From Fodinibius salicampi (lineage in GTDB: Bacteria > Bacteroidota > Rhodothermia > Balneolales > Balneolaceae), in NCBI RefSeq assembly GCF_039545095.1, contig NZ_BAABRS010000004.1, forward strand, positions 310,001 through 374,000: a stretch of 64,000 bases of DNA, in the 5' to 3' direction. The position numbers were made by a program, and so were the translations under genes. Position 1 is the stretch's first letter, and every line of letters starts with the position of its first letter. Below the pieces are notes generated by a model. The model had not been told where the DNA came from, did no database searches, and saw only the letters and a program-made list of their open reading frames with translations. Positions 1 through 58,190 of the stretch are shown here, piece after piece.

Positions 1-602
1 AAGGTCTGATCCAGTGAAAGCCTTTCACTGTCGAAGTTAAATCGGAAAAGGTTGCTCTCGGAGCCGAGGGCAAATAGCTGATCATCCAGTCGTTCGAGGT
101 CTATAACAGATTGATTATTTAACTGCGACTCTGCAACAAATGTAACTTGGGAATCTACCGAGGAGGGTGATTCGAGGGATAACTGACCCAGTCCACGATC
201 TCCCAGTGCAATGAAGAGCTGTTCGCTTATCCGTTGAACATCTAAGGGAGGAACCGGAAGATTAGTAGAGGAATAAACACCCAGTACAGATGTAGGCTCC
301 AGTACTGACAACCGATTGCTGTCACCAAACAGGTAGGCAAAACGAATATCGGCTACTACCGTGTTTCCACGCCTTTGCATCCCGGTTGAGGAGTAAAGCC
401 ATTGCAGTGAATCTGGGCGGGACCGGAAAACAGCCATGCCTTCTGTTTCCGACAGTACGTAAAAATGGGCCGGAGAACTTTCCATTGCCACAACCGAAGG
501 AATATCCATGAGGTAGGAATAATCCTTTGTTAGAGTCGGCTGTGCTGGTGCGCTACTAATGAAAAGTAGCATGAGGATAAAACAACTGTATAAATATTTC
601 AT
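1..602 (-). CDS. Secreted protein of unknown function, C-terminus beyond the window
   Basis: Reading the minus strand from ATG 602 gives about 200 residues with no stop, running off the left edge. The N-terminus (MKYLYSCFILMLLFISSAPAQ) is a clear Sec signal peptide with a likely cleavage site at APA-Q. The rest is a run of short hydrophobic strands separated by Ser/Asn/Asp turns (for example LFIALGDRGLG and LFALGSESNLF), which suggests a beta-propeller, but I do not recognise a family. It starts only 6 bases after the stop of the SDR gene, so the two are probably co-transcribed. The function cannot be named from this fragment. Confidence 0.75.
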   Translation of the reverse strand, partial: MKYLYSCFILMLLFISSAPAQPTLTKDYSYLMDIPSVVAMESSPAHFYVLSETEGMAVFRSRPDSLQWLYSSTGMQRRGNTVVADIRFAYLFGDSNRLSVLEPTSVLGVYSSTNLPVPPLDVQRISEQLFIALGDRGLGQLSLESPSSVDSQVTFVAESQLNNQSVIDLERLDDQLFALGSESNLFRFNFDSERLSLDQT

Positions 603-608
603 AAATGT

Positions 609-1586
609 CTATAACCAATGATGTCGTTGATACCAGTGAATCGTGCGTGAAATACCTTCTTCAAGGGAGTACTGAGGTTTATATCCGAGTTCACGCTGTG
701 CTTTTTCGGATGTACAGGTCCATTCAAGAATCATTTCTTTGGCCTTGTCTCTATTTAAAACGGGATAAATACCAAAAAATGATGATGCTTTTTCAAGAGC
801 CCCGGCAATTTTTTGAACCAAGCCTGGTTTCAAGTAAATAGGAATATTCTTTTTACCCAGTATCTTAGTTGTTATATCCCGGATTTTATTCCAGGTATAT
901 ACTTCTTCTCCCGAAATAAAGTAGGTGTGTACACCGGCTTCTTTCTGTTTAGCCCCTTTAAGGATACCTTGTACAACATCGCCCACGTAGACCATTGATA
1001 TTTTGGGTTTTTTGCCATCTCCAATAATGGGACAAATGCGCTTGTCAACCATCTTAAAAAAGGAGTAGATTTGATCTTCACGAGGTCCGTAAACAGCCGG
1101 GGGACGTAAAATAGTGATGGAAACCTCCTCATTTGCCAGTGCGTGGATGCGTTCTTCCATCTCCTTTTTTGAACGACCATACATACTGATCGGTTCCATA
1201 GGAGCATCTTCCGTAACAGGTTCACCATTGCTGGGACCTGTTGCAGCAAGAGAAGAAAGTATCACCATATTAGTAATACCTTCTTTTTGTGCTATGCGTA
1301 AAAGATTTTCAGTGCTTCCTACATTGGCATGTTCTAACTGCTTGTACGTAGGAGCTTTAACGCGACCTGCAATATGAAAAATGACATCTACACCGCGAAC
1401 AGCCTCCCTTAGAGTAGATATATCATCGAGATCGCCCTTCACCGAAGTAATATTTTTACCTTTTAGCCATTTGGGGTTATTGCGAATAAGGCAGCGAACT
1501 TCTGTATAGTCGTCGTTCTCTAGCAAAGCGTCAACAAGGTGACTGCCAATAAAACCCGTGCCGCCGGTTACGAAGGCTTTCATCAA
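609..1586 (-). CDS. NAD(P)-dependent epimerase/dehydratase (extended SDR); candidate 3-ketosphinganine reductase
   Basis: The 325-residue protein is an extended short-chain dehydrogenase. The Rossmann motif GGTGFIG lies at residues 8-14, the catalytic Tyr-x3-Lys is Y136/K140, and the accompanying Ser is in ILSSLAAT near residue 111. Such enzymes act on nucleotide sugars or as ketone reductases in lipid pathways. It lies divergent from two glycosyltransferases and about 2.5 kb from serine palmitoyltransferase. In Caulobacter the ceramide pathway reductase CerR is an SDR of this class, so a role in reducing 3-ketosphinganine is a reasonable inference; a sugar epimerase is the alternative. The start could be ATG 1586 or 1583. 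A TATCTTTG -7 box on the minus strand (1647-1654) may drive it. Confidence 0.85.
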   Translation of the reverse strand: MMKAFVTGGTGFIGSHLVDALLENDDYTEVRCLIRNNPKWLKGKNITSVKGDLDDISTLREAVRGVDVIFHIAGRVKAPTYKQLEHANVGSTENLLRIAQKEGITNMVILSSLAATGPSNGEPVTEDAPMEPISMYGRSKKEMEERIHALANEEVSITILRPPAVYGPREDQIYSFFKMVDKRICPIIGDGKKPKISMVYVGDVVQGILKGAKQKEAGVHTYFISGEEVYTWNKIRDITTKILGKKNIPIYLKPGLVQKIAGALEKASSFFGIYPVLNRDKAKEMILEWTCTSEKAQRELGYKPQYSLEEGISRTIHWYQRHHWL

Positions 1587-1592
1587 ATTTTG

Positions 1593-1600
1593 TATATTTG
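1593..1600 (+). promoter_or_regulatory. Candidate -7 promoter box for the glycosyltransferase pair
   Basis: TATATTTG fits the Bacteroidota -7 consensus TAnnTTTG and lies about 83 bases before the first glycosyltransferase. I see no matching -33 TTTG at the expected distance, so support is weak. Confidence 0.3.
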
Positions 1601-1646
1601 GTGACTATGTTAATAGTGTTAACCAAGTTCCTTTGGAACCACTGTG

Positions 1647-1654
1647 CAAAGATA
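1647..1654 (-). promoter_or_regulatory. Candidate -7 promoter box for the SDR gene
   Basis: The minus strand reads TATCTTTG, matching TAnnTTTG, about 60 bases upstream of the SDR start. The -33 element is not obvious. Together with the box at 1593-1600 it makes the 96-base spacer a plausible divergent promoter. Confidence 0.35.
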
Positions 1655-1682
1655 CAAATCTCAATGATGCATTGGAAAATTT

Positions 1683-2837
1683 ATGAATGACCCTCGAGTA
1701 GCAATTTTTACCGGAAATTATAATCATATCCAAGATGGAGTATCTCTTACTTTAAATCGTCTGGTTGCCTATTTGGAGACGGAGGGGGTGCCTGTGATTG
1801 TTTTTGGCCCCACGGTAGAAAATCCGCCGATGGATCATGAAGGAGAGTTTGTGCCGGTTCCTTCGGTACCGATGCCCGGGCGTTCCGAGTATCGTATTAC
1901 GGTAGGATTTCCGGAATCCGCGCAGAAACGGCTTCGTGAATTTGATCCCACGCTTATCCATCTGGCTACCCCGGATGTATTAGGCTTTCGTGCTATGCGC
2001 TGGGCACAGGCAAATAATATTCAGATTGTGGCCTCCTACCATACTCATTTTACCAGTTATTTAAAGTATTATAATCTGGATATGCTCAAGCTTTTGGGAT
2101 GGAAATACCTAGAGTGGTTTTACAGTCAGTGCAAGCATATATATGTGCCTTCGCCCTCCATGGCAAAAGAATTAAATGAAGAAGGAATTGATGAAGGAAT
2201 CCGTATTTGGGCCCGGGGGGTTAATACCGATGAGTTTAATCCAAAGTTTCGTGATATGGAATGGCGTCGTTCTATCGGGATCGAGGATTCCGATAAAGTC
2301 GTTAGTTTTGTATCACGATTGGTCTGGGAAAAAAATTTGCAGACATACGTAGATACTGTAAAGCGATTGCGCCAGAAATACGATAGCATCAAACCTATGA
2401 TTGTGGGAGATGGACCGGCAAAGAAGGAGCTCGAGCATATGCTTCCGGAGGCACATTTTACCGGCTTTGTCACTGGGGATGAGCTGAGTCGTGCTTACGC
2501 TAGCAGTGATGTGTTTCTGTTTCCATCCGAGACGGAAACTTTTGGGAATGTGACTCTCGAAGCAATGTCCAGCGGATTGCCATGTGTCGTGGCTGATGCT
2601 ACGGGTAGCAGGTCGCTGGTTGAGTCAGGGGTGAACGGTTTTCTGGCGGCACCCCGTGATACTAAAGAGTTTGCCCGCTGTGTTGCCAAAATACTTGAAG
2701 ATGAGTTGATGCAAGAAAGCATGGCTAAAGCAGCCCGTCAGAAAGCATTAGCGTACTCATGGGAAAATGTAAATAAGAAGCTTCTGGAAAATTATCGAGA
2801 AGCTTTAAGTGAACCCCGTCCACAACTGAAGTTTTAA
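1683..2837 (+). CDS. Family 4 glycosyltransferase (alpha-mannosyltransferase-like)
   Basis: The 384-residue GT-B protein has an N-terminal acceptor domain with the DGVSLTLNRL motif near residues 19-28. The C-terminal donor domain carries SRLVWEKN and the ESETETFGNVTLEAMSSGLP region (E-x7-E). The overall form resembles GDP-mannose-dependent mannosyltransferases of the MgtA/PimB type that glycosylate lipids, but the donor and acceptor cannot be read from sequence. It lacks membrane segments, so it probably acts at the cytoplasmic face. It is followed after 9-15 bases by a second GT4 gene and then the serine palmitoyltransferase operon, which makes a lipid acceptor, possibly ceramide, an inference worth testing. 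Confidence 0.88.
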   Translation: MNDPRVAIFTGNYNHIQDGVSLTLNRLVAYLETEGVPVIVFGPTVENPPMDHEGEFVPVPSVPMPGRSEYRITVGFPESAQKRLREFDPTLIHLATPDVLGFRAMRWAQANNIQIVASYHTHFTSYLKYYNLDMLKLLGWKYLEWFYSQCKHIYVPSPSMAKELNEEGIDEGIRIWARGVNTDEFNPKFRDMEWRRSIGIEDSDKVVSFVSRLVWEKNLQTYVDTVKRLRQKYDSIKPMIVGDGPAKKELEHMLPEAHFTGFVTGDELSRAYASSDVFLFPSETETFGNVTLEAMSSGLPCVVADATGSRSLVESGVNGFLAAPRDTKEFARCVAKILEDELMQESMAKAARQKALAYSWENVNKKLLENYREALSEPRPQLKF

Positions 2838-2852
2838 CCAGATTTTTTGATA

Positions 2853-3983
2853 TTGCGAATACTATATGTTTCTCATAGCCATCCACAAGAAGGAGAAATT
2901 CTTGACAATGTGGGAGGCATGCAGCGTGTAAGTCAGCAACTTATACGTGAACTAGAACGGAAAGAATCAGTAACAGTTTTTAAAGATACCATTAATGCCT
3001 CTGGGAAAGGACAAATTATAGCGAAGACGGTTTCCTTTTTGTTTAAAGAACTGATGGAGCTCCCCCACAGGGTAAAAGAAACGGGGGCCGATGTTGTCTT
3101 GTTTTCTTCAATGGTTACTGCAAGCATGGCCTATTTTCTTCGAAAAAAAATTAATGTTCCAATGGTAACTATTAATCATGGCCGGGATGTGACGCTGCCA
3201 GTCAGGATTTATCAGTGGTTTGTGCCCAAAGTATTTGAACAGCTGGATGGAGTGATTTCTGTTTCCAAAGCTACCCAGAAAGAATGTATGAAAAGAGGCA
3301 TGGCACCGGGAAAGGGGATAGCGCTGCCTAACGGATTTGATCTTAATCGGTTGGATAAATTTCCGGCTAAGGAGAAATCGCGATGGAGTCTTCAGAAAAA
3401 TTTTGATATTCCCCTGGATCAAAAAAAGATGTTACTTACCGTTGGCCGTAATGTGAAACGTAAAGGTCATGAGTGGTTTATACGGGAGGTGATGCCCAAG
3501 CTGGGAGAAGATGTTGTTTATGTGACGGTGGGAGATGGCCCTGAATTCGAAAATATTCAAGAAGCTGCAGATGAGGTTCCATTTAAGGATCGTATTTTTT
3601 TGCTGGGACGTCAGCCAGATAATATTTTAAAGCAGGCCTATGCCGCGGCCGATCTTTTTGTTATGCCCAACATTCCGGTCGAAGGAGACATGGAAGGGTT
3701 TGGAATTGTTTTACTGGAGGCGAATATGGCTCGAACGCCGGCGGTAGCTGCTGATCTTGAAGGTATAAAAGATGTTATAACGCAAGGTGAAAATGGCTTT
3801 CGCGTCCCCACACTTAGTCCGAAAGAATTTGCTGAAAAGATTCGATATGTATTAGATGATGATCTCGCATCATTCTCAGAACATGCCCGGCATCACGTAA
3901 AGGAACAATTCAGTTGGCTGCATGTTGCCAAAGAATATGTTAATTATTTGGAAACAGTTGTTGATCGTTATACTATAAAATAA
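2853..3983 (+). CDS. Family 4 glycosyltransferase
   Basis: This is a GT-B glycosyltransferase of about 376 residues. It has an N-terminal VGGMQRVSQQL motif typical of GT4 acceptor domains, the TVGRNVKRKGHEW donor-domain start, and an EGFGIVLLEANM E-x7-E nucleotide-sugar site. No ATG opens the frame. TTG 2853 gives MRILYVSHSH, the usual beginning of the family, while TTG 2847 would add two residues. It follows the previous glycosyltransferase so closely that the pair must be co-transcribed. The sugar donor and acceptor are unknown; LPS or exopolysaccharide sugars are the alternative to a glycosphingolipid. Confidence 0.85.
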   Translation: MRILYVSHSHPQEGEILDNVGGMQRVSQQLIRELERKESVTVFKDTINASGKGQIIAKTVSFLFKELMELPHRVKETGADVVLFSSMVTASMAYFLRKKINVPMVTINHGRDVTLPVRIYQWFVPKVFEQLDGVISVSKATQKECMKRGMAPGKGIALPNGFDLNRLDKFPAKEKSRWSLQKNFDIPLDQKKMLLTVGRNVKRKGHEWFIREVMPKLGEDVVYVTVGDGPEFENIQEAADEVPFKDRIFLLGRQPDNILKQAYAAADLFVMPNIPVEGDMEGFGIVLLEANMARTPAVAADLEGIKDVITQGENGFRVPTLSPKEFAEKIRYVLDDDLASFSEHARHHVKEQFSWLHVAKEYVNYLETVVDRYTIK

Positions 3984-4000
3984 CATTAAGGTATTCATAA

Positions 4001-4032
4001 TTTGATTGATGCTTAATATGGAAGTATATTTG
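4001..4032 (+). promoter_or_regulatory. Bacteroidota-type promoter of the spt operon
   Basis: A -33 TTTG (4001-4004) and a -7 TATATTTG (4025-4032) are separated by 20 bases. This is the spacing and consensus (TTTG / TAnnTTTG) known for the primary sigma factor of Bacteroidota. Transcription would begin near 4038, giving a leader of about 35 bases before ATG 4074. It implies that spt and the following GNAT gene have their own promoter, separate from the glycosyltransferases. Confidence 0.55.
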
Positions 4033-4073
4033 CAACGATAAGCACTCATATAATAAGTCGAAAGCAGGAACGA

Positions 4074-5318
4074 ATGACTAATTCTAAGTCCGATGTAAAA
4101 GCAAACGATATTTTTGCCAAAGCCTACGATTTTACTAAGGCAGAGGAGATAAAATCAGAAGGATTATACCCTTATTTTAAGCCTTTACAGGCTACTGACG
4201 GTACTACGGTACAGATCGATGGTCGTGAAGTAATTATGGCCGGATCGAATAATTATTTGGGTCTGACGAATGATCCGAGGGTTATTAAAGCAGCCCGTGA
4301 TGTGATAAAAGTGTATGGAACAGGATGCACAGGTTCCCGATATTTGAACGGCACACTCGATCTGCATCTTGAGTTGGAAGAAAAATTGGCAGATTTTATG
4401 AATAAAGATGCCTGTGTGTTATTTAGTACCGGGTACCAGACAAATGAAGGCGCTATACAGACCATCGCCGGCCGTAAGGATGTTATCTTCTCCGATAAAG
4501 ATAATCATGCCTGTATTGTAACAGGTACGCTTGTATCCAATGCGAAGACTATGCGTTTTCGGCATAATGATATGGAGCAGCTGGAGAAGCTGCTGAAAAG
4601 AGCGGATGAGAAGGCAGGGAAAATTATTGTGAGTGACGGTGTTTTCTCAATGTCGGGAACTATTGCTAAAGTCCCCGAACTGGTTGAACTAAAGAATAGA
4701 TTTGATGCTCGCCTCTATCTGGATGATGCACACGCTATAGGTGTTATAGGAGATAAAGGCCGCGGTTCGGCTTCGACCTTTGACTTGATGGACGAAGTGG
4801 ATTTAATAAGTGGAACCTTTTCCAAGTCTTTTGCCTCCCTTGGTGGTTTTCTGGTGGGCGACCAGGAAGTTATTGAATTTATTCGTCATAATTCACCCGC
4901 TCATATTTTTAGTGCTTCGATGCCCCCTGCCAATGTGGCTACTGTTCTAAAAGCATTAGAAATCCTTCAGGAAGAAACATGGCGCTTAGATCGGTTACAA
5001 GAAATTTCTGACTACATGCGAAATTCCTTACAGGACATGGGATTTAATGTTTGGAGTAGCCAAACTCCTATTATACCGGTTGTGATAGGAGGGATGAAAG
5101 ATTGCTTCCAGTTTTGGAAAGGATTGTTTGAGGCTGGCGTTTATGTAAATGCTGTAGTACCACCTGGTGTGCCGCAGGGACAGTCTCTTGTCCGAACCAG
5201 CTATATGGCAACTCATACCGATGATCACCTGAATCGTATCTTAGAGGCGTTCCGCAAGGTTGGTCTCGATCAGGGTATTATTGATCAAAACGGTCACTCT
5301 TTGTTGGATACTGATTAA
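4074..5318 (+). CDS. spt: Serine palmitoyltransferase (PLP-dependent alpha-oxoamine synthase)
   Basis: The 414-residue enzyme belongs to the alpha-oxoamine synthases, which condense an amino acid with an acyl thioester. Serine palmitoyltransferase makes 3-ketosphinganine, the first step of sphingolipid synthesis. H145 in DNHAC, D217 and H220 in DDAHAIG, and the Schiff-base lysine K251 in GTFSKSFASLGG keep the spacing of the Sphingomonas enzyme's PLP site. The N-terminus (YPYFKPLQ, NNYLGL) is the form usual in Bacteroidota SPT. Close relatives 2-amino-3-ketobutyrate CoA ligase and AONS cannot be excluded by eye, but no tdh or biotin gene is nearby, and a GNAT-fold acyltransferase follows after 3 bases. 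It is cytosolic. Confidence 0.85.
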   Translation: MTNSKSDVKANDIFAKAYDFTKAEEIKSEGLYPYFKPLQATDGTTVQIDGREVIMAGSNNYLGLTNDPRVIKAARDVIKVYGTGCTGSRYLNGTLDLHLELEEKLADFMNKDACVLFSTGYQTNEGAIQTIAGRKDVIFSDKDNHACIVTGTLVSNAKTMRFRHNDMEQLEKLLKRADEKAGKIIVSDGVFSMSGTIAKVPELVELKNRFDARLYLDDAHAIGVIGDKGRGSASTFDLMDEVDLISGTFSKSFASLGGFLVGDQEVIEFIRHNSPAHIFSASMPPANVATVLKALEILQEETWRLDRLQEISDYMRNSLQDMGFNVWSSQTPIIPVVIGGMKDCFQFWKGLFEAGVYVNAVVPPGVPQGQSLVRTSYMATHTDDHLNRILEAFRKVGLDQGIIDQNGHSLLDTD

Positions 5319-5321
5319 CTC

Positions 5322-6455
5322 GTGAGTACTGGAAAGCGCACACACAAAATTACGGCAGTAAAAACCGATAAACAGCGAAAGAGGTTTATTGAGTTCCCTT
5401 ATGAACACTATGAGGGCGATGAGCACTGGATCGCTCCGCTTAAAATGGAGCAAAAAAAGCTTATTGATGAAGATAAAAACCCTTTCTTTGAAAACGCCGA
5501 AATCGCTCTTTTTCTGGTCGAAGAGGGAGAAGAACTAAAAGGGCGTATCGCAGCGATTATTGATCATCGATATAATGAACATCACAATGATAAAACGGGT
5601 TTTTTTGGATTTTTTGAATGTGTTGATGATCAAACAGTAGCTAATTTATTGCTTAAAGTAGCATCCGACTGGTTGCGGGAGAGAGGGCGAACCAAGATGA
5701 TGGGACCGGCAAATCCCAGTATGATGGATGAGGTTGGTATCTTGGTTGAAGGTTTTGAGTACGATCCAAGTATTATGATGCCCTATCACAAGGCCTATTA
5801 TGATAAGCTGATTAAAAATGCCGGCTTGAGTAAAGCAATGGATCTTTATGCCTTTCGGGTAACACAAGGGACCGTAAATCTAGATCGTATGTACCGGGCA
5901 GAAGAGTTGGTGCGCCGGCGAATTCGGCGGTTGGATATCCGTGAAATCGATCTTAAAAACCTTGAGCAAGAGGTGCAGATTGTACGACATATATATAATA
6001 AAGCTTGGTCCGGGAATTGGGGATTTATTCCGCTTAATGAGGAAGAACTGGAAGATCTGGCAAAAGATTTAAAGTTAATTTTGGATCCCAAAGTCGCCCA
6101 TATTGCTGAGGTAGATGGGGAGCCGGTTGCTTTTTCTATCGGTCTTCCGGATTTGAATCAGGCACTCAAGCATATGGATGGAACGCTCTTTCCGACCGGA
6201 ATATTCAAACTATTGTGGTATCGCAGAAAAATTAATCGTATCCGAACGGCCCTGATGGGCGTTCTTCCCGAGTACCAGGGAAAAGGTATTGATGCCTTGC
6301 TCCATAAAGAGGCGATAATTAACGGCAAAGAAGTAGGGTATAAATCTTCTGAGTTGAGCTGGGTTCTGGAATCCAATAAAGGGATGATTAGTGTAGCGGA
6401 AAAAATTGGTGCCCGGCGCGAGAAAACCTATCGAATGTATAGCAAAGAACTTTAG
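5322..6455 (+). CDS. GNAT-fold N-acyltransferase; candidate bacterial ceramide synthase
   Basis: The 377-residue protein begins at GTG 5322, three bases after the spt stop, so translation is probably coupled. The C-terminal half has the GNAT look: ALMGVLPEYQGKGIDALLH near residues 310-328 resembles the acyl-CoA loop, followed by SSELSWVLESN. The N-terminal half carries MMGPANPSMMDEVGIL, typical of a poorly characterised GNAT-like family found beside SPT in Bacteroidota. In Caulobacter the ceramide synthase bCerS is a protein of this general kind, so N-acylation of sphinganine is the favoured role. This assignment rests on context and memory of the family, not on an alignment. Confidence 0.7.
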   Translation: MSTGKRTHKITAVKTDKQRKRFIEFPYEHYEGDEHWIAPLKMEQKKLIDEDKNPFFENAEIALFLVEEGEELKGRIAAIIDHRYNEHHNDKTGFFGFFECVDDQTVANLLLKVASDWLRERGRTKMMGPANPSMMDEVGILVEGFEYDPSIMMPYHKAYYDKLIKNAGLSKAMDLYAFRVTQGTVNLDRMYRAEELVRRRIRRLDIREIDLKNLEQEVQIVRHIYNKAWSGNWGFIPLNEEELEDLAKDLKLILDPKVAHIAEVDGEPVAFSIGLPDLNQALKHMDGTLFPTGIFKLLWYRRKINRIRTALMGVLPEYQGKGIDALLHKEAIINGKEVGYKSSELSWVLESNKGMISVAEKIGARREKTYRMYSKEL

Positions 6456-57050: not shown

Positions 57051-58190
57051 TTGCCTGAAACCAAACAAAAATCAGCAGACGATAATCAAACACCCACCTC
57101 CTGGAAAGAAGCTCCTTTTCTTTTAATTAAAGGTTTTTTAATGGGATCCGCGGATGTGGTTCCGGGCGTCAGCGGGGGAACAATGGCCCTCATTGTCGGC
57201 ATATATACCCGGCTGATCGATGCCATTCGCAGCTTTGACTATAGCTTTATCAAGCGATTGGTTACCTTAAAGTTCAGACAGGCCCTTAGCGAGGTCGAGT
57301 GGAAATTTATGGTTATGCTGCTAGCAGGCATGGCCTGCGCGGTCTTTTTCTTTACTAAGATTGTGCCTCTACAGGTATATATGTTTACCGATCCGGAATT
57401 GGTATATGGACTATTTTTTGGTTTGATTGTGGGTTCAATTTTTGTGCTGGCTAAAGCAATTGAGGGCTTTAACTGGCTGCACGGCCTATTGATTGCTTTG
57501 GGGACTATCGTTGGATTTTGGGTGGTTACCTTAGTGCCAACGGCTACGCCCGAATCGTCATGGTTTATTTTTATCAGCGGGTCAATAGCTATTTGTGCAA
57601 TGATTTTACCGGGTATTTCAGGATCTTATATTCTGCTTATTCTGCGCAAATATGATTATATTCTTTCGGAAATTGGAAAACTGGGTACACTAGATACTTT
57701 CAGTAGCCTGATAAATCTACTGCCGTTCGGATTGGGTGCTATATTTGGTCTCGTACTTTTTTCACGAATCTTATCGTGGCTGCTGAATCGGTATGAAGCC
57801 CAAACATTAGCAATACTTATCGGCTTCTTGATAGGATCGTTGTATGTAATTTGGCCTTATCAGGATCGCACCTATTCCGAAATTGTCACGAAAGAGGAGG
57901 TCCTTGCATATAATAGTTCAAAGGTTCAGGAACTACTAAGCAAAACTCCTAATAAACAGCAGCCGGAATATGATCGACTGGGAGAAATCACAAATCCCGA
58001 TGCAGAGTTGGATCGCCTTAAGAAAGTAAAAGTAGAAACGGTTAAGCAGAAGCTTATCAGAAGTGAGCCGTTTGTTCCATATATAACAGTGGAGGGAGTC
58101 AAAACCGACCATTTCTACAGCGGAATATGGGGGATGATAATCGGACTTTTTATGGTTGTCGGAGTTGACTCTTTGCGAGCGAAAGGATAA
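57051..58190 (+). CDS. DUF368 membrane protein
   Basis: The 379-residue polytopic protein starts its conserved part with LIKGFLMGSADVVPGVSGGTMALIVGIYTRLI (about residues 26-57). It continues with AICAMILPGISGSYILLILRKYDYIL, both typical of DUF368, and has about nine helices. DUF368 (PopT/PTS-type) proteins have been linked to flipping of undecaprenyl phosphate across the inner membrane. The start is TTG 57051; no ATG would keep the conserved first helix. A charged insert of about 75 residues follows helix 8. Confidence 0.85.
   Translation: MPETKQKSADDNQTPTSWKEAPFLLIKGFLMGSADVVPGVSGGTMALIVGIYTRLIDAIRSFDYSFIKRLVTLKFRQALSEVEWKFMVMLLAGMACAVFFFTKIVPLQVYMFTDPELVYGLFFGLIVGSIFVLAKAIEGFNWLHGLLIALGTIVGFWVVTLVPTATPESSWFIFISGSIAICAMILPGISGSYILLILRKYDYILSEIGKLGTLDTFSSLINLLPFGLGAIFGLVLFSRILSWLLNRYEAQTLAILIGFLIGSLYVIWPYQDRTYSEIVTKEEVLAYNSSKVQELLSKTPNKQQPEYDRLGEITNPDAELDRLKKVKVETVKQKLIRSEPFVPYITVEGVKTDHFYSGIWGMIIGLFMVVGVDSLRAKG

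Follow-up and report, generated by a model that had tools for sequence, protein, structure and literature searches.

The candidate ceramide biosynthesis cluster described here lies at the beginning of a 64,000-nucleotide stretch of DNA from Fodinibius salicampi (contig NZ_BAABRS010000004.1, positions 310,001 to 374,000), referred to below as the window. The 3.94-Mb genome belongs to the salt-loving Fodinibius/Aliifodinibius group of the order Balneolales. Five genes make up the cluster. P0001 (609-1586, minus strand) encodes an extended short-chain dehydrogenase/reductase (SDR) with Pfam Epimerase/3Beta_HSD matches, a candidate CerR-like reductase. It points away from the remaining four genes, with 96 bp between it and GT_A (P0002, 1683-2837), the first of two plus-strand GT4 glycosyltransferase genes; the second, GT_B (P0003), occupies 2847-3983, and both were recognized with Pfam GT4 models. 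On the same strand follow P0004 (4074-5318), placed in the serine palmitoyltransferase (SPT) clade by its tree position, PDB match, and active-site residues, and P0005 (5322-6455), a 377-aa N-acyltransferase of the bCerS/YghO family and candidate ceramide synthase, assigned by its tree position and the neighborhoods of its homologues. The P0005 start lies 3 bp past the SPT stop codon. All five open reading frames named in an earlier, first-pass annotation were present at these positions, and the features it had listed (an SPT with its pyridoxal phosphate [PLP] residues, a closely following GNAT-like gene, two GT4 genes, and an SDR with a YxxxK motif) were all confirmed. By SPT identity (86-90%), the closest named relatives are Fodinibius roseus and Aliifodinibius salipaludis.

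P0004 carries the PLP-site residues Lys251 (codon 4824-4826), Asp217, His220, His145, Thr248, and Arg374. Its best relative in the PDB was the SPT of Sphingobacterium multivorum (3A2B, 427 bits), followed by KBL/AONS-type enzymes at no more than 286 bits and then by the cysteate enzymes at 234 and 221 bits. The tree against KBL and AONS proposed in the first-pass annotation placed P0004 on the SPT side: in 66 rows, it fell inside the SPT clade of alpha-oxoamine synthases with support of 98/96, whereas the KBL of the same genome (L002) grouped with a KBL of known structure and a BioF-like gene (L003) lay apart. The S. multivorum enzyme, the closest solved relative, has the PLP residues and Ala281 in common with P0004 but sits on a separate branch of the SPT clade, with small differences near the active site at Thr86, Tyr121, Ala360, and Tyr377 (window numbering). 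Ala281 (codon 4914-4916) was found in P0004 and in all 35 of its relatives from the order, at the position held by Lys281 in SulA. SulA, a cysteate fatty acyltransferase, shares the superfamily and fold of P0004, but its sequence similarity is much lower; the comparison with it was confined to bit scores and residue 281, and each paralogue examined was a KBL, BioF-like, or unclassified. Rows L204, L205, and L208-L211, which are misread frames from high-GC genomes, were left out of the active-site alignment, where Salinibacter ruber is represented by row L102.

The assignment of P0005 was decided by the spt neighborhoods of its homologues. Pfam gave a weak GNAT match only, PDB searches with the protein and its profile returned just weak C-terminal matches to ordinary acetyltransferases, and an AlphaFold model built from six sequences reached a pLDDT of 44 and was used for no claim or fold search. 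Full-length relatives at 29-39% identity included YghO of Escherichia coli and Pseudomonas (tblastn against plasmids), and P0005 was 34-39% identical over its full length to seven reference proteins from spt-cerR-acpR clusters or spt neighborhoods. The E. coli relative has as neighbors an SPT-type gene, an acyl carrier protein (ACP), an epimerase-type SDR, and a fatty acyl-AMP ligase; in Pseudomonas veronii, the relative is surrounded by genes of similar size and order, mostly annotated as hypothetical; and the Sphingomonas parapaucimobilis relative has an SDR, an ACP, and an SPT-type gene within a few genes of it. Judged by gene content, these neighborhoods are the aasR-cerR-acpR-spt-cerS set of Caulobacter and its relatives (PMC11324152). 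The spt gene, a P0005-type gene, and an SDR gene are consecutive in Rubrobacter and Streptomyces, and in Aureispira the P0005-type gene is near spt, with the SDR divergent from spt. In a 57-row tree, P0005 grouped with the proteins encoded next to SPT and with those of Proteobacteria, and the second copy of this genome, L005, fell in a paralogue group set apart by a 100/100 branch. These comparisons support P0005 as a full-length member of the bCerS/YghO family, in its SPT-associated branch. Thus, the protein described in the first-pass annotation as a GNAT-like acyltransferase can be named more closely, by tree and synteny, as a bCerS-family N-acyltransferase of candidate function.

The paralogue L005 was also considered as the real bCerS of this genome and was rejected, since the 100/100 branch puts it in the other group. 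That group forms a second, widespread YghO/bCerS branch in Bacteroidota (L005:1495-2637, minus strand, and L117-L129), which is not next to SPT and has no Pfam match. At another locus (L114, genome G105), two tandem bCerS-family genes stand behind a single SPT, an arrangement that suggests two acyl-chain specificities.

The ORF of P0001 opens at a TTG at 1586, and the ATG at 1583 is the likelier start. Its nucleotide-binding motif, TGGTGFIG, and the YxxxK residues Y136 (codon 1179-1181) and K140 (codon 1167-1169) are invariant across the set of SPT-linked SDRs, to which P0001 is 38% (Aureispira), 35% (Streptomyces), 32% (Rubrobacter), and 26-27% (proteobacterial) identical. P0001 grouped with SPT-linked SDRs of Bacteroidota (89/81), and the other extended SDRs of the genome formed a separate clade of their own (99/93). 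The reductase proposed in the first-pass annotation therefore stands as an SPT-linked SDR by tree and synteny, while the deeper branches toward proteobacterial CerR are weak. The 3-ketosphinganine reductase of Bacteroides, BT_0972, is likewise an SDR-superfamily enzyme for the keto step and reduces 3-ketosphinganine directly, but it is not SPT-linked in Bacteroides (PMC9278070; compared by description). In Caulobacter, acylation has been proposed to come first, followed by reduction of the keto-ceramide by periplasmic CerR (PMC11087976). The sequence of the window would fit either order, and the sequence of events given in the first-pass annotation, reduction and then acylation, is not established. 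The SDR is apparently cotranscribed with a gene that starts 6 bp behind the SDR stop codon (window 3-602, minus strand; whole gene, L045:9056-10603, minus strand); the product, of 515 aa, has Ig-like domains (He_PIG) and what looks like a signal sequence.

We next compared the locus across the order in a sample of 36 loci, the window and 35 relatives, drawn from 21 genera and five families. The bCerS gene follows SPT in all of them, and GT_A, upstream of SPT, and the SDR are present at every locus where the contig reaches. Outside the order, 18 of 27 P0005-type loci have an SPT adjacent, and 7 of these 18 have the same divergent SDR, without glycosyltransferases. At locus L111, a close relative of the S. 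multivorum SPT stands in line with bCerS and SDR genes. With the same neighborhood in 35 relatives and further SPT-acyltransferase pairs in other classes and phyla, the cluster is not a product of chance. The pairing outside the order appears to be stronger evidence of a functional link than order-wide synteny. A published survey found the three genes not close together in sphingolipid-producing Bacteroidota (PMC11334938); for the loci found here, that statement fails across the phylum as GTDB draws it.

The ceramide cluster of Caulobacter and other Proteobacteria (aasR, cerR, acpR, spt, cerS) shares with the window an SPT, a bCerS/YghO-family acyltransferase, and an epimerase-type SDR. The window cluster differs in containing neither AcpR nor AasR, in its divergent SDR, and in the addition of two GT4 genes; its SPT gene is immediately followed by bCerS, whereas proteobacterial cerS is reported to belong to a separate operon (PMC11324152). 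Loci from other Bacteroidota classes (L092-L099, except L097) match the window in the divergent SDR and the adjoining SPT and bCerS genes, and the spt-bcerS-SDR loci of Rubrobacter and Streptomyces, as well as L097, contain the same three families. Unlike the window, L092-L099 and the Rubrobacter and Streptomyces loci have no GT_A or GT_B between SDR and SPT.

The motif TTTG/TAnnTTTG is the promoter type of the phylum Bacteroidota. An exact match, TTTG-N20-TAnnTTTG, lies on the plus strand at 4001-4032, 41 bp 5' of the SPT start codon. With spacers of 17-22, the pattern occurred 5' of SPT in 10 of the 36 order loci, which include close relatives and are thus not independent, compared to 0.2% of random 150-mers; directly upstream of bCerS or GT_B in these loci, the full pattern was never found. 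The TAnnTTTG half was present 5' of GT_A in 15 of 34 loci, as opposed to 5%. Over the entire window, the pattern shows no enrichment (3 occurrences versus 1.4 expected), so that its position and conservation carry the case for a promoter. The distribution of the pattern suggests that GT_A-GT_B and SPT-bCerS are two transcription units and that the SDR is read divergently. Scans for generic sigma-70 promoters and for terminators gave no more hits than in shuffles. The separate promoter-like site of SPT and the divergent SDR go beyond the first-pass annotation.

Both glycosyltransferases contain an E-x7-E motif, identified by inspection. The alpha-galactosylceramide synthase of Bacteroides fragilis, BF9343_3149, is also a GT4 enzyme with a motif of this type, but it has Asp for the first Glu (PMC9692976; compared by description). 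The curated models nearest to GT_A describe lipid-acceptor enzymes (GlcN-PG synthase and monoglucosyl-diacylglycerol [DAG] synthase), and its scores were far below their cut-offs. GT_A orthologues at 46-57% identity were found in 12 of 12 Rhodothermia genomes searched outside the order, away from SPT, and several of these loci have a GT_B homologue beside GT_A and an MMPL-family exporter close by. Because the pair sits elsewhere in Rhodothermia outside the order, its linkage to SPT looks specific to Balneolales, and the two genes are probably an ancient glycolipid module that ended up within the ceramide cluster in this order. The Rhodothermia loci (L192-L202), where GT_A, in several cases with the GT_B homologue, is near the exporter and in some cases a DUF3047 protein, may represent a module for glycolipid synthesis and export. 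From the sequences available, the odds that GT_A and GT_B transfer sugar to ceramide are about even.

Taken as a whole, the locus is more probably than otherwise a (dihydro)ceramide biosynthesis cluster with attached glycosyltransferases, and the ceramide core by itself is highly probable. Several observations weigh against this interpretation. P0004 scored 502 bits against a cut-off of 640 for NF047600, the NCBIfam equivalog model of Bacteroides/Sphingobacterium-type SPT, and is therefore not filed under that narrow model; the cut-off was reached in none of the 39 order genomes searched. The order-wide synteny taken alone is weak proof of a functional link, because FumC, which is unrelated, also neighbors the cluster in many order loci. 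GT_B was recognized in 29 of the 36 order loci and is missing in some members, and to this must be added the occurrence of GT_A and GT_B away from SPT elsewhere in Rhodothermia. The "glycolipid" spots of taxonomic descriptions could be glycosyl-DAG, and a literature search found no sphingolipid study or sphingolipid data for the order Balneolales. The points on FumC, on GT_B, and on the pair away from SPT also favor a different account, in which SPT, bCerS, and SDR make ceramide while the glycosyltransferases make another glycolipid, for example glycosyl-DAG, and are neighbors only; the nearest curated models of GT_A, which act on phosphatidylglycerol and DAG, agree with it. Yet GT_A stands between SDR and SPT at every order locus whose contig extends that far, although SDR and SPT are immediate neighbors in other parts of the phylum, and we consider this account rather unlikely. 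A more radical possibility is that the 4074-5318 protein is a glycine C-acetyltransferase (KBL) or AONS and that the cluster does not serve lipids. The superfamily is the same, and the KBL and BioF models do match P0004, at lower scores; however, the genome holds its own KBL and BioF-like genes, the tree contradicts this identity, and forcing the Balneolales enzymes together with KBL was rejected by the approximately unbiased test (p-AU 0.00016). The clustering with KBL that the first-pass annotation had named as refuting its proposal was thus not found, this identity was rejected, and the possibility is exceedingly remote.

In a possibility that the first-pass annotation did not raise, the SPT-clade enzyme would condense cysteate, with the bCerS-family enzyme N-acylating a capnine-type base, as halocapnine in S. 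ruber would need. S. ruber DSM 13855 (G058; L102, L205, and L210) belongs to the same GTDB class as the window and makes halocapnine by a pathway called not well defined (PMC6508672). The identity of G058 follows from 6000 bases of its small contig, which are 100% identical to plasmid NC_007678.1. Among its alpha-oxoamine synthases at E<=1e-15, only the P0004 orthologue (65% identity) and a KBL above its NCBIfam cut-off were found, so that this orthologue is its sole SPT-like enzyme at that threshold. Its neighbor is a bCerS-family gene, and the S. ruber and window enzymes agree at all active-site columns compared. The S. ruber pair is the obvious candidate for halocapnine synthesis. On the other side stands Ala281: Lys281 is conserved in known SulA enzymes and has been proposed to tell sulfonolipid from sphingolipid enzymes, and SulA K281A is about 1,000-fold less active (PMC9304779). 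The solved cysteate enzymes also score far below SPT, no sulfur gene was recognized beside the S. ruber pair, and nothing recognized there suggests cysteate synthesis. For Fodinibius, lipid tables show glycolipids of unidentified structure and, in some species, aminolipids; they give a sulfonolipid neither for this genus nor for other Balneolaeota, which favors the ceramide interpretation. Either the S. ruber pair makes halocapnine despite Ala281, or halocapnine has another origin. We regard it as improbable that the SPT-bCerS pair of Balneolales and Salinibacter is a halocapnine synthase whose Ala281 enzymes accept cysteate; if it were, the published Lys281 rule would fail in this class.

Returning to the ceramide interpretation, we infer the substrates and products, the sequence of reactions, and the identity of the sugars and of the acyl carrier from family membership, conserved synteny, and active-site residues. 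From serine and a long-chain acyl thioester, SPT would form a 3-keto sphingoid base by condensation; the acyl chain is probably iso-branched, because iso-C15:0 dominates in the genus. The bCerS-family enzyme would N-acylate this base, and either before or after this step the divergently encoded SDR would reduce the 3-keto group. GT_A and GT_B may then add one or two sugars, and the product would be an envelope glycosylceramide. SPT and bCerS probably share a transcript that starts from their own promoter, with GT_A-GT_B as a unit upstream. Of the compact glycosphingolipid pathway proposed in the first-pass annotation, the SPT, the bCerS-family acyltransferase, and the SPT-linked SDR are borne out by trees and synteny, and sugar transfer to ceramide is plausible only.

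Two other genes of the window may be mentioned. A fatty acid hydroxylase family protein (PF04116; 59367-60275, plus strand), of a type for which sphingolipids or sterols can be substrates, is encoded 53 kb from the cluster, and a VCA0040-like (PF04018), undecaprenyl phosphate translocase-like protein is encoded at 57051-58190 (plus strand).

The core of the cluster is an ordinary, known three-gene ceramide set; the parts of interest are the order-wide linkage to glycosyltransferases and the Salinibacter lead. For S. ruber sulfonolipid, whose biosynthetic genes are described as undefined, the analysis names the only SPT-like candidate. The organism of the window is a probable glycosphingolipid producer, and a little-studied order of halophiles would become predicted (glyco)sphingolipid producers with defined genes, in a compact five-gene set usable for reconstitution. 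Unidentified glycolipids are among the polar lipids of every Fodinibius species with data (PMC12260241), and the cluster offers a testable origin for them.

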